A stretch of DNA of 46,922 nt from a virus: positions 1-46,922 of the IMG/VR virus record IMGVR_UViG_3300045006_000090. One strand, 5' to 3'. Of this stretch, positions 29,184-46,922 are shown piece after piece (the stretch's first letter is position 1; the number at the start of each line of letters is the position of its first letter). Below the pieces are notes generated by a model, which worked only from the letters and a program-made list of their open reading frames with translations, was not told the DNA's origin and did not search any database. A program made the translations under genes and the position numbers.

Positions 29184-30521
29184 TTAGCTTTCCGCCGGGG
29201 GTTGGAAGGATATGGAAACGTAACCCGTGATGTCCGCCTCTTCGATTGCGCCCGCCGGGCGACCGCCAAACTTGAAGCGGAAAATACGGTCGGCAATGTC
29301 GGCTTCCGGCGTGTCGGCATAGGAGTTATAAAAAACCCCCGTACCGCCTTCCTGATAATGCTTGATCGCTTCGCCGCGCTTCAAGACATTTTCCGCCAGA
29401 CCGGCAACCGCCGCAAAGCCGTTGTCGTCATAGGGATACTTCGTTCCGAGATTGGACATCCTAACGAATGCTTCGGCAATGGCTTCCTTGATTCGCGCCG
29501 AAGTCCAATCGGCCGTAATGAGCAGATCAATGAAGGTCCCACGCCCCAACTTCCCCTTGCCGGAACATGCCACCCCGTAAAACGTGGTGTAATAGTTCCC
29601 GTTTTTCCCGTCCATCTTGGACTGTTGGGTTGTGGTGTAGGTCTGTTCGGTTACGCCTGAAACCGTCGCATAGCTCCAGGTGGTCGCGGTCACGTCCGGG
29701 GAGTAGGCACAGCGATTGCACAACAGCCCCCATGCCAACGGTTCCGTGTCGGTCGGATGATACCAAATGGTTGACCGGAGAAGGGACCGGGCTTTGGCGC
29801 GCGCCATGCTTTCCGTACCGGGGGCGGAATAGCTCACGCCGGGACAATCGGCATGGGAAGTCTGCCCCACAAACAGCCGGTCATTGGCTTCTGCCCAAGC
29901 CGCCGCACTCGTGGCATCTGGCGAGCTGGCGCTTACGTTGTCGGTGTCCACCCAACCCGGTCCCAGGGTCAAGCCGTAGAAGTCCGAGTATTGCTCGAAA
30001 ATCTTGGCAAGCGCCGCATAGGGACTGGCGAAACTGGCACCCCACAAACCGACCGCAATTTTTTTGGGGTGTGGGCTTTGCGAGAATGCCGTATTGATGA
30101 AGGCGGCATCCGTGGTGTTGGCGAATTGGGCGGTATCCGCCGTCACTTCGGCCGCATCCCCATATTCCCGGTAAAGGTCCCCGCCGAAGGCGTTGCAAAT
30201 TCCGCCGTCAACCGTTGCGCTGGGGATGGTTTCGTGTACCACAATGTCGGTGTGGGTGATGTCAAGCGTTGCGCTGTGGACCGTATAGACTCCATCGTTG
30301 CCGGTGGAAGCATAGACCCGGAAAGAGGAGTCAACCGCGAAGTCCGCAACGTGGTCCCCGGCGACCGTGAAGGTCTTGGTTCCGGTAGACACACCCGTAA
30401 TCACGAAATCCGTGGTGCCGGTCTTCGGCTTGACCAACATCAACGGAATCCCAAATGACTGCTTGCCGACCGATGCCCCATCGAGGGACACCGTAACGGT
30501 CACGCGGGAATCAAACGACAT
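29184..30521 (-). CDS. Tail sheath protein (DUF3383-like)
   Basis: The 445-aa protein resembles DUF3383-type sheaths, identifying a contractile tail. N-terminal RVTVTVSLDGASVGKQSFGIPLMLV is followed by a domain at about 37-108 that looks inserted (KTFTVAGDHVADFAVDSSFRV). A similar domain occurs in the fibre. Typical C-terminal features are WTSARIKEAIAEAFVRMSNLG near 350 and ADITGYVSISFQP at the end. ATG 30521 has GGAAAGGAAG upstream. A predicted promoter lies 37-65 nt before it. Confidence 0.85.
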   Translation of the reverse strand: MSFDSRVTVTVSLDGASVGKQSFGIPLMLVKPKTGTTDFVITGVSTGTKTFTVAGDHVADFAVDSSFRVYASTGNDGVYTVHSATLDITHTDIVVHETIPSATVDGGICNAFGGDLYREYGDAAEVTADTAQFANTTDAAFINTAFSQSPHPKKIAVGLWGASFASPYAALAKIFEQYSDFYGLTLGPGWVDTDNVSASSPDATSAAAWAEANDRLFVGQTSHADCPGVSYSAPGTESMARAKARSLLRSTIWYHPTDTEPLAWGLLCNRCAYSPDVTATTWSYATVSGVTEQTYTTTQQSKMDGKNGNYYTTFYGVACSGKGKLGRGTFIDLLITADWTSARIKEAIAEAFVRMSNLGTKYPYDDNGFAAVAGLAENVLKRGEAIKHYQEGGTGVFYNSYADTPEADIADRIFRFKFGGRPAGAIEEADITGYVSISFQPPAES

Positions 30522-31688: not shown

Positions 31689-32156
31689 CTATTTCGCGCC
31701 ACCCGCGCCAACGCCAGAATGCACCTCAAAGGCAACCGAGTTTCGCATTGCACCTGTAAGGATAAGATGAAGTTCAGTAATCCGCAAGCGTAAGTCGGCT
31801 TGTACCATCATCCCTAATTCGGTCAAGAAACCATCCGCCGTGCGGCTTCCATCCTGAACTGCCCGAACCCCATCCGCGATGAAGCGGTTGTACTTTTCCC
31901 GGTTCAAGTCCAGAGTTGACCGCATCCACGCCTTTTCTTTGACCCTCCCCCCCTGGGACCCGAATTCATGCAAGGCGGCATATACGGCAACCGGCGTGCC
32001 TTCCCCACTGTTCGGCATGGCACCCTCAAAGATGCCAACCAAAACAAAGTCCCCGTCAAGTTTTCCGGTGTTTATTACCGCGCGCTTGAAATTCCTGTCC
32101 CCGAATTCCTCTACTGTCACCCCGACCCCAAACTTGGACCGGGAAACGGATGCCAT
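31689..32156 (-). CDS. Neck / tail-completion protein (HK97 gp10-like)
   Basis: The 155-aa protein resembles gp10-like tail-completion proteins. LVGIFEGAMP near 39-48 and AVYAALHEFGSQGGRVKEKAWMRSTL near 57-82 follow the ...HEFG...R.WMR pattern, and GAMRNSVAFEVHSG lies near the end. It would complete the neck. ATG 32156 follows the adaptor stop by one base, with a weak ribosome site; translation is probably coupled. Confidence 0.7.
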   Translation of the reverse strand: MASVSRSKFGVGVTVEEFGDRNFKRAVINTGKLDGDFVLVGIFEGAMPNSGEGTPVAVYAALHEFGSQGGRVKEKAWMRSTLDLNREKYNRFIADGVRAVQDGSRTADGFLTELGMMVQADLRLRITELHLILTGAMRNSVAFEVHSGVGAGGAK

Positions 32157-32157
32157 T

Positions 32158-32571
32158 TTACAGCCCCGGCAAGATGCGCCATTGACGGAAAGAACGGTAA
32201 AGGTCTTCCTTCAACAGTTCCCCGTCAAAATCGGTGGTCAAATCGCTTGAAGTTCCAACCCGCTCCGTTTTCGTGCCCATCACACGACGCATGTAGAGGT
32301 GACACGCATACCGGACCACCCCGACCACTACCGTTTGCGGCAATAGGATGGTGATGGGAGATTGTACGCCAAAAGTATTCTCTCGGGTGTAGTCCGCGAA
32401 GTCATTGTTGCAATAGGCATCCGCCCATGCCGCCGCTTCGCGCATTACCCCATCCGCCGCATCTTCCTGAATATCCGCCGCTTCCAACCCCAGGAATTCC
32501 GCGATGATACCGGAAATCTTGCCTTCAAATGCCTCTTCGATTCGGTCTTGAATCGCTGTCTTTTCCGCCAT
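32158..32571 (-). CDS. Head-tail adaptor protein
   Basis: The 137-aa protein resembles small helical head-tail connector adaptors: DGVMREAAAWADAYCNNDF near 40-58, TILLPQTVVVGVVRYACHLYMRR near 74-96. These bind the portal and pass DNA to the tail. ATG 32571 has AAAGGTG upstream. It follows the glycosyltransferase cassette and starts the neck genes. Confidence 0.7.
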   Translation of the reverse strand: MAEKTAIQDRIEEAFEGKISGIIAEFLGLEAADIQEDAADGVMREAAAWADAYCNNDFADYTRENTFGVQSPITILLPQTVVVGVVRYACHLYMRRVMGTKTERVGTSSDLTTDFDGELLKEDLYRSFRQWRILPGL

Positions 32572-32606: not shown

Positions 32607-33752
32607 TTACGGCAATTTGCCCATGCGCTTTAAGCGCCCTTCAAGTTCAGCTTGCGCCATTGTCTCTTTTCGCGCAAGGGTCTTCCCATTTTGTAACATC
32701 AATGGTTTCGTTCGGCAAGTTTGCCGCATGACCGCGACCAACACCCCAAGTTGTTCCAGATTCAAGCCGACAAACCGCGCCGCGTTGGCCTTTGCCGCTT
32801 GGCATTGACGACGGTAATACTCGGGGTCGGAATCAAGCCGGGTGATGGCCTGTGCCCAGCCGTCCAATTCTTCGGCATTCACGGCATTGGGCGCAAACCC
32901 AACAGTATTACGGCAAAAGGCGGTGGATGGTCCAAGGCTTTCACGCAAGCTGTCAAGATCGCTGGCGACAACCGGAATACTGTTCCATTGCGCCTCGATT
33001 GCTGCCATTCCGAATGATTCAGCATGGGACGGCATCAACAGGATGCGTGTTCTGGCAAGCGCCGCCCGGATGTCCCCGTTGGGTATCGTTTCCACATTGG
33101 GCAAATTGACGGGCACCTGTTGACCATATCCGCCCTTGACCAACAGGAAGTCCTTTTCCGGCATCATCCGCGCCAAGGCTTCAAGCAGGAACACCCCCTT
33201 TTCCGCTATGGCGTTGACAAGTGTAATCCTCTCCCTGTTATGCTGTCTATTGATCGTTACCCGTTCAATATCAAGCGGCGGATACAGGATGGCATGATGC
33301 GGCATGGGGCGTAGGTCCGCATATAACAGAGAGTCTATACTGTTGAAAATAAAGAAGTCGGTCTTCTTTTTGCCAAGATCGGTTGCGCCGTGAATCCAAG
33401 ACCACGGACCATGACAGACAATCCCGACCGGAAGCCCCTTGACATCGGATGCTTCAATAACCCTGTCGCACCACTCAAATTGAACCAACACCACATCCGG
33501 CTTAAAATCGTCAAGGATTGGCGCAACCGGCCCCAGGTGATGCGGCACCCCCCGGTAACACTGAATGCCCTCTTCATCCACCACCTTTGCCAATACCCCA
33601 TCCCGCCGGGTTGCCGTGACGACTCCGATTTGATGACCCATCCGGGAAAGATGGCGCGCGAATCCGGCAACATAGGTTTCCCCGCCCGCCATCAATGGCA
33701 CATACCTTGGGGCAAACCACAAAATTTTCAACGGCTGTTCCTTGGCTTTCAT
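32607..33752 (-). CDS. Glycosyltransferase family 4 (GT-B)
   Basis: The 381-aa protein has the GT4 features: LKILWFAPRYVPLMAGGETYVAGFARHL at the N terminus with the Gly-Gly-x-Glu loop, a GT-B linker, and PSHAESFGMAAIEAQWNSIPVVASD, which contains the E-x7-E nucleotide-sugar motif. It would transfer a sugar from an NDP-donor. The C-terminal 45 residues are basic. The ATG overlaps the methyltransferase stop (ATGA). The acceptor is unknown: virion protein, DNA or host surface. It is the last gene of a cassette lying inside the structural genes. Confidence 0.85.
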   Translation of the reverse strand: MKAKEQPLKILWFAPRYVPLMAGGETYVAGFARHLSRMGHQIGVVTATRRDGVLAKVVDEEGIQCYRGVPHHLGPVAPILDDFKPDVVLVQFEWCDRVIEASDVKGLPVGIVCHGPWSWIHGATDLGKKKTDFFIFNSIDSLLYADLRPMPHHAILYPPLDIERVTINRQHNRERITLVNAIAEKGVFLLEALARMMPEKDFLLVKGGYGQQVPVNLPNVETIPNGDIRAALARTRILLMPSHAESFGMAAIEAQWNSIPVVASDLDSLRESLGPSTAFCRNTVGFAPNAVNAEELDGWAQAITRLDSDPEYYRRQCQAAKANAARFVGLNLEQLGVLVAVMRQTCRTKPLMLQNGKTLARKETMAQAELEGRLKRMGKLP

Positions 33753-35002
33753 TCCTTCCTCTTCTCTTGTTCCAATCTTTCCCGTTCCGCCTTCAAGCGC
33801 GCAGCTTCCCTACCCTCGACGGTGTAATACTTGCTCTGCCCGGTGATGCGGTCCAGTGTTTCGGCCTGCCAGTGATTCAGATAGGGGGCATTATCAAAGC
33901 CCCACCGGCCGGGCTGTAAACAATGAGTATCAATCGGCACCCTTTCCCGCACATTGTCGGGGACCACATCGTAAGGCAACCACCCTATACCACCAAACAG
34001 CCGAAGCAACCGGCAATACAAGGCACAACAATCATCCAACATGCCAGCTTGCCGCCCGAGGTCTTCCTGTATCATCCCCACGATGTTCCAGGGGTCCCCC
34101 GACTTATGCGCGCCCGTGGTCAAAAATGCCTTGACTACTCCCTCCCTGCCCAAAGCCTGCAAGACGGTCAAGTATTGGATGGGGCGAAACGTGTAATCCG
34201 CCTCGATTTTGCACCATTCCCCGGCAAGCCGTTCCCCCTCTGTGGCGCGGATGATGATGCGGGAAGCGGGTTGCACCCCAAGCCCTGCCAGGATGGAAAG
34301 GTCCACCGACTTGACGGGGGGAAGTTTGCGCCGGAAAAGATAGGTAAAATAACCCGGATAAGTGGCGGGAAACACCTTTTCAAGTGTAAAGAAACGCCCC
34401 ATTTCTTCCAGAAAGTCTTGCTCGGTATAGGGGGGCACCGTTTCCCGTTCCCAGGGGGACAATCTCCCCAAGGCGGCATCCGCTAGACCTTGAATGGTCA
34501 CGTTATCGGTCTTGTGATTTCGGTCGGTGAATCCGGTTTCAACCAAGCAACGGTCATGGGACACCATTGCCAGCTTTCGCACGAATCCCCAACCAAGCTG
34601 GGAATAGAACATCCGATGGACGCAACGCAAGGCCAATACCACGTCAAAGGATTGGTCAAGCGGTTCGGTGGCAAAGTCCGCCTGTAGGACTAGTGCGCCA
34701 GGGAACATGCCCCGGACCATCCGGGCGGAATTCGGGTCCAATTCGACCCCCACCACCCGCCGCGCGGCCTCCCAATATCCCAGGTGAAACCCCTTGCCCG
34801 TGCCAATGTCAAGCACGCTGTAGGGGTCCCATTCACGCATCCTGAATTCCAACTCATAGACCCCCACCCGTTCCGCCAGTAACCCGGATGGAATCATGGT
34901 CCGGGGGTCAAAGCTTGAAGCTTGGGGATAGCGGTTTTCATCCATGACCCACGCAAGAGCATCCGTTCCCGTTGCCTGCAATCCTTCAACGTCCGCCTTC
35001 AT
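33749..35002 (-). CDS. SAM-dependent methyltransferase with extra C-terminal domain
   Basis: The 417-aa protein has a class I SAM-binding motif (YSVLDIGTGKG, residues 61-71) with an acidic GVELDP near 85-90 and ADFATEPLDQSFDVVLALRC. The C-terminal half (about 210-400) is long, with aromatic motifs (WNIVGMIQEDLGRQAGMLDDC, then YLNHWQAETLDRITG), and may bind the acceptor. The acceptor is unknown. It is coupled to the GT4 gene and lies 10 nt from the GT2 gene; ATG 35002 has AGGTGAAAC upstream. Joint expression suggests glycan methylation, inferred only from the cassette. Confidence 0.8.
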   Translation of the reverse strand: MKADVEGLQATGTDALAWVMDENRYPQASSFDPRTMIPSGLLAERVGVYELEFRMREWDPYSVLDIGTGKGFHLGYWEAARRVVGVELDPNSARMVRGMFPGALVLQADFATEPLDQSFDVVLALRCVHRMFYSQLGWGFVRKLAMVSHDRCLVETGFTDRNHKTDNVTIQGLADAALGRLSPWERETVPPYTEQDFLEEMGRFFTLEKVFPATYPGYFTYLFRRKLPPVKSVDLSILAGLGVQPASRIIIRATEGERLAGEWCKIEADYTFRPIQYLTVLQALGREGVVKAFLTTGAHKSGDPWNIVGMIQEDLGRQAGMLDDCCALYCRLLRLFGGIGWLPYDVVPDNVRERVPIDTHCLQPGRWGFDNAPYLNHWQAETLDRITGQSKYYTVEGREAARLKAERERLEQEKRKE

Positions 35003-35012
35003 GTTTCACCTG

Positions 35013-35747
35013 TCAACCCAAAGCCGTCAACATCCCGGTGTGCAACCGATATTGAACCAGCACCTTGTCAAGCATTCGCGCCGAATCCGGCCCGAACCGT
35101 TCTAGGATACGCCGGTAGAAATCAAAATCCTCCCCAATTCGCATTCCGTTTTTCCCCAACCTGCCACCCCCTTTTTCCTGCCAATCCGGGTGATACAGCC
35201 CGGCTGCAAAGGCGGCTTCCCGCCGGTAGGCAACCGCCGTGGTGTGAAACCCAAGTTCCCGGTCTTGCCCCTGCCAGTGATAGCGTATTGGGAAACGATA
35301 AAGGCGAGCCTTCCCCTCTTCATCATAGATGATTTTCCCGTCTTCGTTGATGACCACGGCATCGGCCGAACACAGCATCAATGCCGAGTCCGCAACAAAG
35401 GCATCCGCCAATACGTCCAAACGGTTGGGATAGCTAATGTCGTCATCATCCGCTTGGGCGATGATGTCCCCGCGTGAAAGGCAGATGGACACGTTGCGTT
35501 TGTGGGTCAACGGTGCCCCAGGGGGGAGAACAGCAACCCGCACTCTGTCGGGTGCAAGGAAGTTTTCTTCTGCCCAAACCGCCATCCTTGCCGCAACCCA
35601 TGACTCACGGGAATCATCCACCACCACCAATTCCCAATCCACGCAAGCTTGGGCAAGCAGGGATGCCAGAGTGTCACGGATAAACCGTTGCCGGTCATGT
35701 GTCAGCATGACAATTGAAAATAACGGATGCCCGCGCGGATGGTCCAT
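35013..35747 (-). CDS. Glycosyltransferase family 2 (GT-A)
   Basis: The 244-aa protein shows the GT2 pattern: FSIVMLTHDRQRFIRDTLASLL, WELVVVDDS near 38-46, a DXD-like ADDDDIS at about 99-105, and GEDFDFYRRI near the C terminus, followed by VQYRLHTGML. It transfers sugars from NDP-donors with metal help. There is no membrane segment, so it acts in the cytoplasm. ATG 35747 overlaps the stop of the previous gene (TAATG). Cassette with GT4 and methyltransferases. Confidence 0.85.
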   Translation of the reverse strand: MDHPRGHPLFSIVMLTHDRQRFIRDTLASLLAQACVDWELVVVDDSRESWVAARMAVWAEENFLAPDRVRVAVLPPGAPLTHKRNVSICLSRGDIIAQADDDDISYPNRLDVLADAFVADSALMLCSADAVVINEDGKIIYDEEGKARLYRFPIRYHWQGQDRELGFHTTAVAYRREAAFAAGLYHPDWQEKGGGRLGKNGMRIGEDFDFYRRILERFGPDSARMLDKVLVQYRLHTGMLTALG

Positions 35748-36148
35748 TATTTCCCTCCTTTCTCTTCCGTGTTACCGCGACCATCCCCGCGACCAACCTC
35801 GTCATGCCTTGAACCTGGAAAAGCCATTGGGTGTTGCCTTCTCCATTGTTTTTCCGTTTCAAGGTCCATCTGCTTTCTTGCCTCTTCTATCTGCCTTTCT
35901 TGTTCGGCATTCCACCTTTCTTGCGCCGCTTCCCAAACTTGCGCTTTCCCCTCTTCAATCAACATTGCGGCGATGGGGGCGGGGACCCGCAAAACTTGTC
36001 CATGCACCACATTCCCGGACCCCGGCATTTTGAACGGCTTCAACACCCGCACCCGTTTCCACTGTGGGGCTTCTTTGTCCATTGTCGGGCCGGAAATCGG
36101 GATAATGCCCGGCCCGGTCCCTTCCCCTTTTCCCTTCTCTTGGTTCAT
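35747..36148 (-). CDS. Hypothetical coiled-coil protein of the cassette
   Basis: The 133-aa protein has a beta-like first half (WKRVRVLKPFKMPGSGNVVHGQVLRVP) and then a long Glu/Gln/Arg-rich coiled coil (VWEAAQERWNAEQERQIEEARKQMDLETEKQ, near 70-100), ending Gly/Arg-rich. No family recognised. The first part resembles small SH3-like domains that pair with a phage structural protein. A motif related to the genome's promoter sequence lies about 50 nt upstream. It could be an acceptor or scaffold for the glycosyltransferases. Confidence 0.6.
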   Translation of the reverse strand: MNQEKGKGEGTGPGIIPISGPTMDKEAPQWKRVRVLKPFKMPGSGNVVHGQVLRVPAPIAAMLIEEGKAQVWEAAQERWNAEQERQIEEARKQMDLETEKQWRRQHPMAFPGSRHDEVGRGDGRGNTEEKGGK

Positions 36149-36191
36149 TTTACGCCCGTCTGGTTTTTCGCTGCAACGCCCAACACCTTCC

Positions 36192-36204
36192 TTGTCATTG
36201 TCAA
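36192..36204 (-). promoter_or_regulatory. Shared TTGACAATGACAA motif before cassette gene
   Basis: The minus strand reads TTGACAATGACAA at 36204-36192. The same motif family precedes the operons at 724, 5376, 8790 and 17855. At 17-nt spacing the -10 would be GGGCGT, which is poor, so this is an operator- or activator-type candidate more than a proven promoter. Confidence 0.35.
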
Positions 36205-36239
36205 ATTACCCTCAGATGCCCCCCCTGTCAAGTCCGCCA

Positions 36240-36956
36240 TCAAAATCCCTTGCGGAACAACTTGACCACCTGCCCGGAATGCCCCATCGGCATTCCCGGC
36301 GTGTTGGGGTCTTCCTCAATTCCCCGTGAAACCAGAAATTCCAGGATTTCCCGCTCACTGTGATAGTCGAAAAACCAAAAGTCCTTGCGAAGTTTGGACA
36401 TCAATTCCGGTGTTTCCATGCCAACGATGCGGGCGAAGTGCAAGGAAAAGAAACCGCCATCCTTCAACACCCGTGCCACCGTTTCCAGATAGGCAAAGAA
36501 AAGGTCCCGGTGGAAATGCACGAAAACGTCAAAGCTGAAAACGAAATCCACCGAACCGTTTCCCAAAAATGGCAAGCGGCCATCCGGGCAGACCGCGAAC
36601 AGGATGCGCCCATCCCTGGGAAGACGTTCTCCGAATGCCGCCCGGATGGCATCCCCGCTCGCTTCCGTGCCATCAACCAAGATGGTCAACCCGTGCCCCC
36701 CTTGGGCTTCGGCACTCGGCCCCCTGTCCCACAAGAATTGCGACATGCGGCCACCACCGGACCCAATTTCCATGATGGTTTTGCCCGGACAGACGAACGG
36801 GTCAAGGAATCGTGCCCGCATGTCCACAAGATAGGGGGTGTCCGCTGGGGTCCACTCCCGTTCCCCCCAGGGACGCGCGAAGTCCCCGGCGGCAACATAT
36901 TTTTCCAGGTTGCGGACATTGATTTGCGCGTTGGTCTGCTTGCCCTGTTCGGCCAT
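36240..36956 (-). CDS. SAM-dependent methyltransferase
   Basis: The 238-aa protein has a class I SAM-binding motif TIMEIGSGGGR (60-70), an acidic LVDGTEAS near 92-99, and FVFSFDVFVHFHRDL, the post-I and motif IV-like region of a small-molecule or sugar methyltransferase. The C-terminal tail is mixed. It is next to the major capsid terminator and precedes the coiled-coil gene in reading order. GGAAAAAACAG lies just before ATG 36956. Substrate unknown. Confidence 0.8.
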   Translation of the reverse strand: MAEQGKQTNAQINVRNLEKYVAAGDFARPWGEREWTPADTPYLVDMRARFLDPFVCPGKTIMEIGSGGGRMSQFLWDRGPSAEAQGGHGLTILVDGTEASGDAIRAAFGERLPRDGRILFAVCPDGRLPFLGNGSVDFVFSFDVFVHFHRDLFFAYLETVARVLKDGGFFSLHFARIVGMETPELMSKLRKDFWFFDYHSEREILEFLVSRGIEEDPNTPGMPMGHSGQVVKLFRKGF

Positions 36957-36978: not shown

Positions 36979-37009
36979 GAAAAGAAAGCCCCCCGCGCGG
37001 CGGGGGGCT
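36979..37009 (-). terminator. Strong rho-independent terminator after major capsid gene
   Basis: AGCCCCCCGC and GCGGGGGGCT form a 10-bp stem with a 3-nt loop, followed on the minus strand by TTCTTTTC. It lies about 90 nt beyond the capsid stop and would keep capsid mRNA more abundant than the downstream cassette. Confidence 0.9.
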
Positions 37010-37096
37010 TCCGGTCTTGGCTTGCGTGCGTTGGGGTGGGTCCCAGGGCTTGCGCCCGCGCCGCACAAGTCCAAGGGCTGTGCTTGCTTGCGGCGC

Positions 37097-38578
37097 TTAC
37101 GAACCGCCCGTAGGCGCATGGTCCAGGGTGATGGCGCAGAACGACTCGGGGGACTTGATCGCCAGCGCAACCCGTTCCTCTGCCAAGATGGTCAGCATGT
37201 TGCGGGTGAAATTGTCCTCATGTTGGGTGGCCACCGACACGGTTCCCGCCTCGCGGTCCCACAGGGTACACCCCGCCATGAAGTCACCGACCAATACAGT
37301 ACCCTCGGAAATCGCGGTCGTTTCGAACACCGGCACCCGCCACAGCCGCCCGGTATCGCCACCATCGGCCACCGTCTTGACGATGAGATAATGCCCGTCT
37401 TCGCCCTTGGACAACTCGACGTCTTCCAGGTCCAACGGGTGCATCACAATCAGGTTAACCGGGCTGTTGGCCAGATTGGCCAGGGTGATTCCGCGCCGGA
37501 TGGCATCAACCTGCAAATCGCCCACCACGCCATCGGACCACTTGAAGGTCTTGATACTGGCATGGGTGAGGATACCCTGAATCGCCGGGGATACGTTGTT
37601 CCCGTAGAGGATTTGCCATTCCTCCGAAAGCGCCAAGCCATAGAGCAAATCGTCATCCACGTTGGCCCGAAGCTGTTCGATGTCGGCTAAGATTTCCTTG
37701 GGCAAGGTGATATGGTGCGCCAAGGTCCGCACGTCGGTTGACCGGGCTGCCAGGGCGATACGACTCGACGGTTTGATGTTGGTGGACGCGGTAAAATTGA
37801 AGACCTCGGACGTGACGGCCACACCGGAAGAGTGGGTCTTCGCCAGATTGCTTGACAGGGTGACGGTTCCCGTCGCGCCGTTGGTCCCGGTTTTCGTGAT
37901 GGTGGCGATGGTGCCGGTTTCGCGGTCGGTGGCGGAATCGGCGTCAATCGTCAACACCTGTCCGACCATCAACCCGTTGACATTGGTAAGCTTGACATTC
38001 TTCTGTCCGCTTGCCGCCGTATCGGTGGTGGTGGTCCACAGGTGGTTAAACCCGGTTCGTTCCACCCAATAGACCGTCGCGGCGGACACCGGGCGCACCG
38101 TCATAAAGTCCCGCAAGAAAGCCTTGCGCTTGGGCGTTTGGGCGAATTCCTGGATTCGCTCGCCGGAAATGGTGCCAAGCGCCGTGATGGAATCGGTGGT
38201 GATGCCGGAATCCGCCTTGCGCCGCATGGCCGCGAACATGGAACACTTGACGGCCAAGACCGCCCGTTCCCCGGACTCGACGCGGTTCTTCTGGATCGCG
38301 TCCAGTTCCACCACTTGCCGCCCCAGGGACTTGATTGCCGCACCCTTGCCGCCGGTCGGCACGCCCGCGCCCGCCGCGTTGGCCGCGTTGAAGCGCCCGT
38401 TCAGTTCTCCGAAGTCCTTGGCCAGCTTGTCCATGCGTTCGGCCGTTTCCCGTTCCTTGGCCGCACGGGTGGCCGCATCGGTGTTGGTGCTGGCTTTGAT
38501 ACCGTCGAATTCGGCGCGAAGCGTCTTGAATTCGGCAAGCATGGATTCCATCTTCGCCATCAATTCCTTGAGGTCCAT
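37097..38578 (-). CDS. Major capsid protein, HK97 fold, with inserted beta domain
   Basis: The 493-aa protein has an N-terminal helical region (about 1-100, MDLKELMAKMESMLAEF) like the HK97 delta/scaffold domain. The HK97 core follows: RDFMTVRPVSAATVYWVER, LADIEQLRANVDDDLLYG, AIQGILTHA, IVMHPLDLEDVELSKGEDGHY. Between about 195 and 257 lies an extra beta-rich stretch (VGQVLTID, ETGTIATITKTG, GTVTLSSNLAKTHSSGVAV) that standard capsids lack. It is likely surface exposed. ATG 38578 follows AGGACAGG. It is downstream of the prohead protease and has its own terminator. Confidence 0.9.
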   Translation of the reverse strand: MDLKELMAKMESMLAEFKTLRAEFDGIKASTNTDAATRAAKERETAERMDKLAKDFGELNGRFNAANAAGAGVPTGGKGAAIKSLGRQVVELDAIQKNRVESGERAVLAVKCSMFAAMRRKADSGITTDSITALGTISGERIQEFAQTPKRKAFLRDFMTVRPVSAATVYWVERTGFNHLWTTTTDTAASGQKNVKLTNVNGLMVGQVLTIDADSATDRETGTIATITKTGTNGATGTVTLSSNLAKTHSSGVAVTSEVFNFTASTNIKPSSRIALAARSTDVRTLAHHITLPKEILADIEQLRANVDDDLLYGLALSEEWQILYGNNVSPAIQGILTHASIKTFKWSDGVVGDLQVDAIRRGITLANLANSPVNLIVMHPLDLEDVELSKGEDGHYLIVKTVADGGDTGRLWRVPVFETTAISEGTVLVGDFMAGCTLWDREAGTVSVATQHEDNFTRNMLTILAEERVALAIKSPESFCAITLDHAPTGGS

Positions 38579-38608
38579 CGTTTCCTGTCCTTTCCTTTGG
38601 GTGGGTGG

Positions 38609-38630
38609 TTGGGTGCAACCCCGCACCCAA
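38609..38630. other. Hairpin between protease and capsid genes
   Basis: TTGGGTGC and GCACCCAA form an 8-bp stem with a 6-nt loop. No U tract follows. It sits in the capsid mRNA leader and may stabilise or process it. Confidence 0.5.
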
Positions 38631-46022: not shown

Positions 46023-46312
46023 TCAACATCCCCTTCCCCGTCGTTTTGACTGTAAAACGCACGGTCAACGGCAAGCGCCATAACAACGAAAGCCATCATT
46101 GAAACATCATACAGACATCGTTTTCTGCAATTTACCGAGACATGGGCGATGTAGGAAGACAGGGCGCGCAGCTTCCCCATAGTGCAAACGATCTTGCCAC
46201 GAATGAACCCCATAATTTCAACAGCAAATCTCGCGGCCTCTTCATCGGTAAAGCTGAACAGTTCCCCGCCAATCATCACGTAAAACAGGGATGACATCTT
46301 TTCCGCTGTCAT
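46019..46312 (-). CDS. Hypothetical protein with C-terminal hydrophobic segment
   Basis: The 97-aa protein is coupled to the small terminase: ATG 46312 overlaps its TGA. ATG 46297 has a GGAAAAG site and is the alternative start. The first half contains FSFTDEEAARFAVEIMGFIRGK, the second an MMAFVVMALAVDRAFY hydrophobic stretch near 73-88. No family recognised; position in the packaging operon between the terminase genes. Confidence 0.55.
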   Translation of the reverse strand: MTAEKMSSLFYVMIGGELFSFTDEEAARFAVEIMGFIRGKIVCTMGKLRALSSYIAHVSVNCRKRCLYDVSMMAFVVMALAVDRAFYSQNDGEGDVE

Positions 46313-46922
46313 TCCTTTGCCCCTTCCCCGTCTTTAGCTTTGACTAAACTTCCCTCTTCCCCATCCCCCTTCCCCTCCCCGCTTTGTGGCACCTCTTCCG
46401 ACTCCCCCGCCACCACTACCCCAGCCGGGTCCGGTGCCGCAATCATGGACAGCACATCCGCAATCCGTGGGTCGGCCGCAAGCCTGCCCAGCCGCACCCG
46501 CCAGTCAAGCTGAATGGGTCCACCATCCGGCCCGGTGTGCTGTGCGTTGATGACGACAGGTTGATAAAGCCCGAGCACCTTGGCGCGGTGTTCCAGGGCT
46601 TTGAGATAGGCACCCGCCGCATCAATCCTATCCGAAGTCTTAACCCCATTGTCTAGCACTTCGCCAAGACGGCGCAAAACCCCTTGGGTCTGCTCTACAT
46701 CCAACTTCCGTGCCTCCAAAGTGGGAAGCAAGACAAGGGCTTCAAGAGCCCGGCGCAAGGTCGCGGACACCTCGGACTGAGACAAACCCGTTGCTTCGGA
46801 AATTTCAAGGGTGGTCCACCCATTACGCCGCAATTCCAGAACGCGAGCGGTAATGTCCAAAAGCCGTTGGTCTTCCCCTGGGGCTGCCAGGGGGACCACC
46901 CCGACCACCTTCTGCCCGTCCT
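46309..46922 (-). CDS. Terminase small subunit, C-terminal part (continues from 337)
   Basis: This is the main body of the small terminase whose N-terminal 60 residues are encoded at 337-161. An HTH (GWTTLEISEATGLSQSEVSATLRRAL) recognises DNA. A helical region (LEARKLDVEQTQGVLRRLGEVLDNGVKTSDRIDAAGAYLKALEHR) forms the oligomer core. The last 60 residues are acidic and Gly-rich. The full protein is about 258 aa. The stop overlaps the next ATG (ATGA). Small terminases vary, so the call rests on HTH, size and the large terminase in the same operon. Confidence 0.8.
   Translation of the reverse strand, partial: DGQKVVGVVPLAAPGEDQRLLDITARVLELRRNGWTTLEISEATGLSQSEVSATLRRALEALVLLPTLEARKLDVEQTQGVLRRLGEVLDNGVKTSDRIDAAGAYLKALEHRAKVLGLYQPVVINAQHTGPDGGPIQLDWRVRLGRLAADPRIADVLSMIAAPDPAGVVVAGESEEVPQSGEGKGDGEEGSLVKAKDGEGAKE
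46749..46922. repeat. Right copy of 174-bp terminal overlap
   Basis: This copy matches 1-174 with one synonymous difference (c at 46876 versus a at 128). Unit length between copies is 46,748 bp. Confidence 0.95.

Follow-up and report, generated by a model that had tools for sequence, protein, structure and literature searches.

The window examined here is the whole of the complete uncultured-virus record IMGVR_UViG_3300045006_000090, 46,922 bases long. Between its major capsid protein (MCP) gene and its neck genes lie five minus-strand open reading frames (ORFs) at 32607-36956, encoding in order a methyltransferase (MT1), a small protein, a GT2 glycosyltransferase, a second methyltransferase (MT2) and a GT4 glycosyltransferase. 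Judged from sequence, this five-gene cassette is probably a late-expressed virion glycosylation system, with methylation of the sugar, acting on exposed C-terminal serines. The genes, their catalytic motifs, the recurrent linkage of GT4 to the MCP gene, and the covariation of a linked glycosyltransferase with Ser/Thr-ended MCP and tail proteins were all computed.

The C-terminus of the MCP changes with the presence of a linked glycosyltransferase. Capsid proteins encoded beside such an enzyme finish in short tails, e.g., TPSGS, NPSGS, APAGS, TTAAS, KYAS or AGTT, whereas members of the same capsid family without one, up to about 66% identical, end in DDEDPEA or VKTP or run on into a fused extra domain. 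Ser/Thr-ended MCPs occur in 52 of the 61 clusters with a linked glycosyltransferase and in 0 of the 11 without (p = 5.6e-8), in 21/24 versus 0/8 of the loci gathered by MCP sequence alone (p = 1.6e-5) and, with isolates included, in 22/25 versus 0/19 (p = 2e-9). Within one MCP family the split is complete: 45/45 loci with the enzyme and 0/33 without. The glycosyltransferase-less status of 33 control records was verified by Pfam models, whose sole glycosyltransferase match was a GT2 in Cantare, distant from the capsid genes. Cluster counts are only partly independent, and genes in the related loci were called as plain ORFs. More trust belongs to the phylogenetic contrasts: on a capsid tree computed without the last 15 residues, 7.3 of 8 independent contrasts were concordant and 0 discordant (p 0.008-0.016). 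This C-terminal rule is new. In four glycosyltransferase-less loci of the same capsid family (L237, L245, L250, L255) a C-terminal extension of ~80 residues replaces the Ser tail, perhaps as an alternative capsid decoration.

Tail tubes follow the same rule, with Ser/Thr ends in 53/56 clusters that have the enzyme versus 3/7 that lack it (p = 0.002), while the ends of connector, stopper, MuF and scaffold proteins, and of GT4 itself, are Ser/Thr at background frequency. Tail terminators too are Ser-ended in phages with the enzyme, actinobacterial prophage loci (e.g., L140, L276) having a conserved HPVS end; because no homologue from a glycosyltransferase-less phage is available, these ends are uninformative, and HPVS may reflect either a third acceptor or no more than ancestry.

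The window GT4 is a member of phrog_26352, a clade tied to the capsid, and stands downstream of the MCP gene, on the same strand and before the neck genes. Among characterised genomes its closest relative comes from Streptomyces phage TurkishDelight, whose gp20, a tandem GT4, lies between the capsid and major tail genes. An alignment of these proteins gathered 80 contigs of uncultured viruses, which form 20 clusters. A PF05065 capsid is present in 24 of the 28 GT4 records tested; GT4 is same-strand and downstream of the MCP gene in 24/24 and within about 320 bp of it in 18/24. The linkage extends to bacterial genomes, where GT4 is capsid-linked in all 45 loci with an identifiable MCP, 44 of them Ser/Thr-ended. 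These prophage loci are mostly from Streptomyces, plus other Actinomycetota; single GT4-capsid loci were found in records titled Bacteroidota, Pseudomonadota and Planctomycetota. Four actinobacterial prophages (L124, L139, L140, L147) have two GT4 genes alternating with capsid and connector genes, in the order MCP-GT4-connector-GT4. Among 50 phages with a DUF3383 sheath neither GT2 nor GT4 was found (0 of each), but as just 3/50 carry a PF05065 capsid, this base-rate comparison was not used to judge linkage.

The late genes of the window run on the minus strand in the order terminase, portal, MuF, protease, MCP, five-gene cassette, small head-tail gene, neck1, tail terminator, DUF3383 sheath, tube, chaperone, tape measure and baseplate. 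The cassette is thus flanked by MCP and protease upstream and by neck, tail terminator and sheath downstream. A preliminary description of this DNA had placed two glycosyltransferases (GT2, GT4), two S-adenosylmethionine (SAM) methyltransferases and a coiled-coil protein between capsid and neck, and ORFs are found at exactly the span it gave, with the neighbours it named:

37097-38626, minus strand: MCP, HK97-type (PF05065, 2.5e-35); C-terminus ...DHAPTGGS, the predicted acceptor
36988-37012, minus strand: terminator-like hairpin and T-run after the MCP gene (-24.5 kcal/mol; consensus match only)
36240-36956, minus strand: MT1, SAM-dependent methyltransferase, 238 aa (PF13649, 7e-8; PF08241, 4e-7)
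35747-36148, minus strand: small protein, 133 aa, with a phrog_2616-like core (2.7e-4) and a charged helical tail
35013-35747, minus strand: GT2 glycosyltransferase, 244 aa (PF00535, 1e-12; DDDD and GED motifs)
33749-35002, minus strand: MT2, with a SAM methyltransferase domain at about residues 60-130 (PF08241, 1e-6, N-terminal part only) and a further C-terminal region
32607-33752, minus strand: GT4 glycosyltransferase of the capsid-linked clade phrog_26352 (2.9e-39; PF00534, 1.5e-9)
32158-32571, minus strand: small head-tail protein after the cassette, in the connector position (by position only; no family match)
31689-32156, minus strand: Neck1/tail completion protein (phrog_222, 8e-23)
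29184-30521, minus strand: tail sheath, DUF3383 (phrog_205, 1e-47), with the C-terminal extension ...QPPAES, the second predicted acceptor

Overlapping stops and starts, described earlier for the cassette as a whole, are present at two of its four junctions (small protein/GT2 by 1 base, MT2/GT4 by 4 bases) and absent from the other two. The catalytic motifs are whole: DD/DDDD/ED in GT2 and E-x7-E at 245-253 in GT4, with motif I present in both methyltransferases (EIGSGGG and DIGTGKG), and no membrane segment was detected in the cassette proteins (maximum KD19 1.52). A gap of 140 bases, containing the terminator hairpin, separates the MCP gene from the cassette. The hairpin probably attenuates cassette expression, and its position is consistent with enzymes required in lower amounts than the capsid. 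Elsewhere in the window, a CI-like helix-turn-helix (HTH) regulator gene lies at the left end (1580-2935) and an RNase E-like PHROG match near the terminase end (46309-46908). The phage is a mosaic of a DUF3383 contractile sheath and a PF05065 capsid, a combination present in only 3/50 sheath relatives.

The best named match of MT1 is the putative sugar O-methyltransferase TIGR04371, weak and below the cut-off; the closest matches of GT2 are exopolysaccharide enzymes (e.g., WcaA), at low scores; and an AlphaFold2 (AF2) model of MT2, made with no alignment, was unusable (pLDDT 34). The small protein had been taken for a coiled-coil component of the cassette, a description that gives way to its match with phrog_2616, a family also matched by the small MCP-downstream protein of Klebsiella phage ST147-VIM1phi7.2, which is without a GT2- or GT4-family glycosyltransferase. 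By sequence it is a standard MCP-downstream gene with no speciality for the cassette. The C-terminal extension of GT4 in L128 and L174 was considered as a counterpart of this small protein and rejected.

The two predicted acceptors stand apart from their relatives. The MCP of the window is nearest to those of Cantare, Gray and GMA6, which are Ser-less and have no linked glycosyltransferase; its nearest isolate capsid relatives, likewise without the linked enzyme, end in APTP, FATA or GTFV, and among the 12 isolate relatives fetched only Pseudomonas phage Psp6 has a Ser-ended MCP. In an AF2 model of the window MCP, of middling quality (pLDDT 64.5), the last five residues are disordered. An overlap of the MCP stop with a glycosyltransferase start, considered as a cause of the terminal Ser, is excluded in the window by the 140-base gap. 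The sheath carries a six-residue tail, QPPAES, past the usual ITGTVSV end, and among 60 distinct sheath ends a final Ser occurs only in the window and in L007 (...FTAS), its closest relative. In a contractile phage the outermost tail protein is the sheath, not the tube; the window tube ends in PAG, and this combination of a Ser-ended sheath outside and a PAG-ended tube fits a system acting on exposed termini. L007 (IMGVR_UViG_3300013130_000273) is the closest relative of the tail module as a whole (sheath 42%), and from its Ser-ended sheath we predict a cassette, between MCP and neck, upstream of its truncated end.

We propose that the soluble GT2 and GT4 would add a short glycan to the main proteins exposed on the phage particle itself; the likeliest site is the flexible MCP C-terminus with its Ser/Thr (...APTGGS), and the sheath terminus ...QPPAES is probably a second. 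MT1 and MT2 would most likely O-methylate the added sugars, and particles would leave the cell bearing hundreds of small, partly methylated glycans. Sugar O-methylation is what the two cassette methyltransferases suggest by analogy, the precedents being the GT2-TylF fusion gp108 of Che8 and the O-methyltransferase of Cluster O; methylation of protein may be the alternative. We infer the action of the enzymes on these termini in the window, as we do the order of GT4 and GT2, the placing of the methyl group on sugar and any benefit, which might be stability or protection from antibodies, from adsorption decoys or from proteases.

Several points weigh against this proposal. The MCP ends of 9 of the 61 glycosyltransferase-linked clusters, mostly freshwater phages, are not Ser/Thr, most of these nine having Ser/Thr within three residues of the end; the GT4 set was partly ascertained by GT4 sequence; and without Psp6 and L328, the two least certain rows, the capsid tree gives 6 contrasts (p 0.03-0.06). 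The linkage and the tails could mark some other shared trait. The window lineage is itself a near-singleton by sequence: viral contigs scanned with its GT4, MCP, sheath and MT2 as single sequences yielded no relative, and tblastn with MT1 and MT2 against 50,697 phage records gave zero matches. A singleton lineage offers no internal comparison for the covariation. BLASTP of the window enzymes against those of Che8 gave only short segments (E 0.007-8.8), so they are not detectably homologous beyond the superfamily. The glycan chemistry of the window's virions is a prediction from sequence, and the MCP itself offers an alternative acceptor region at residues ~205-282 (window ~37780-38014).

That region is an insertion of ~80 residues, rich in Thr and Ser, that occupies the E-loop position and is missing from aligned relatives; together with the neck genes that directly follow the cassette it gives some ground for placing the virion glycan elsewhere, on the insertion, the neck proteins or fibres, with the C-terminal Ser incidental. 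We consider this unlikely: it is C-terminal Ser/Thr, and not the insertion, that is common to glycosyltransferase-linked MCPs, and connector and stopper ends fall outside the rule. The late structural position had earlier been read as leaving virion protein, DNA and host surface all open as acceptors. The first of these is upheld by the capsid linkage of the GT4 clade and by the covariation; the other two are unsupported, because genes for base hypermodification were not recognised and the cassette proteins lack membrane segments. Phage glycosyltransferases that modify bases against restriction do exist, according to PMC12619734, which cites Pyle 2024, but the genes scanned include no recognisable hydroxymethylase, thymidylate-synthase-like gene or any other for base hypermodification, the cassette sits in the head-neck module away from the replication genes, and its clade tracks MCP and tail termini; glycosylation of modified DNA is thus extremely unlikely.

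A change of capsule or lipopolysaccharide, for superinfection exclusion or lysogenic conversion, would suit both the exopolysaccharide-like (WcaA) GT2, low as its scores are, and the HTH/CI-like regulator at 1580-2935, which is compatible with a temperate life. Among the family matches there is, however, no GtrA/GtrB-like partner (flippase, bactoprenol glycosyltransferase) to go with these membrane-segment-free enzymes, a late structural operon is the wrong place for expression in a lysogen, and the covariation with capsid termini would go unexplained, all of which makes this reading very unlikely. The position downstream of the MCP gene is a common moron site in general, and the terminator found there in the window would suit morons for glycogen, small-molecule or other metabolism landing in an insertion-tolerant spot. 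Such morons would leave unexplained why the MCP and tail-tube C-termini change with the presence of the genes, and we regard them as most improbable.

Modification of the exposed C-terminal serines may be a special case of something broader. We slightly favour the view that there is a general, so far unrecognised class of phages that build glycan coats by means of a GT4 linked to the capsid gene, frequently accompanied by GT2, GT11, GT25 and methyltransferases, acting on a Ser/Thr tag at the end of the MCP and of the outermost tail protein (the tube in siphophages, the sheath in contractile phages), the tag being gained and lost with the enzyme. If so, virion glycosylation would extend past mycobacteriophages to phages of Streptomyces and other Actinomycetota and to many uncultured freshwater phages, and a linked glycosyltransferase together with a Ser/Thr-ended capsid protein would serve to recognise it in a sequence. 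It would bear on antibody clearance of phages, particle stability and adsorption, supply possible small tags for C-terminal glycosylation along with the enzymes that match them, and allow phrog_26352, now of "unknown function," to be re-annotated.

A methylated-glycan decoration of the virion was at first thought to be novel, but it has precedents in Cluster O (PMC4351075) and in Che8 gp108. As related in later papers citing Freeman et al. 2023 (Cell Host Microbe), mycobacteriophage glycans sit on the C-terminal ends of the capsid and tail-tube proteins (PMC12619734), Che8 gp110 and Corndog gp38 are essential for capsid glycosylation (PMC12363180), and modification of capsid and tail tube is reported for the Cluster O enzymes (PMC11600133, PMC12363180). 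The Che8 capsid ends in FNKTGS and its tail tube in YSDGS, those of Catdawg in PLVGS and KGDS; the rule found in unrelated GT4 phages is therefore also true in glycosylated phages or their near kin. The virion operon of Cluster O (Corndog gp35-38, Catdawg gp33-36) encodes an O-methyltransferase and three glycosyltransferases (PMC4351075), and so, like the window, combines O-methyltransferase with several soluble glycosyltransferases. Unlike the window, it has its cassette in the portal-protease interval instead of between MCP and neck, belongs to a Mycobacterium siphovirus and includes an N-acetylglucosamine (GlcNAc)-transferase family. Che8 gp108-110 (cluster F) similarly bring GT2 and methyltransferase activities together, gp108 being a GT2 fused to a TylF-type O-methyltransferase, but lie at the far right genome end with a GT25 as third enzyme. 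The window shares with the Che8/Corndog type its soluble glycosyltransferases, cassette methyltransferases and Ser-ended MCP and exposed tail protein, and by analogy would work in the same way, with no homology of the enzymes claimed.

Closer in sequence are the phrog_26352 relatives and TurkishDelight gp20, with the same GT4 family beside the MCP gene. The clade was found in one isolate only, TurkishDelight, and in no mycobacteriophage; most relatives are siphophages that have a single GT4 or a pair of them on either side of the connector, whereas the window is contractile and adds GT2 and two methyltransferases. Freshwater phages (L199, L201, L207, L208, L210, L128) resemble the window in carrying several glycosyl/methyl enzymes as a cassette within the head module, for the most part after a Ser/Thr-ended MCP, but these are metagenomic, uncharacterised and of other glycosyltransferase families (GT25, FkbM methyltransferase and GT11 in the first five). 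Several glycosyltransferase cassettes also contain a protein family that matches nothing in Pfam or PHROG (L103 7919-8704, L128 5506-6246, L199 11502-12287), possibly an undescribed glycosyltransferase. Psp6 (L375, 4728-7345), an isolate whose MCP ends in LPTAS, has between its MCP and connector genes a sialyltransferase-like phrog_4603, a phrog_6804 and a methyltransferase, and, unlike the window, no GT4 or GT2. Glycosyl/methyl virion cassettes as such are thus not new; what is new in the window is the enzyme set and its setting in a contractile phage.

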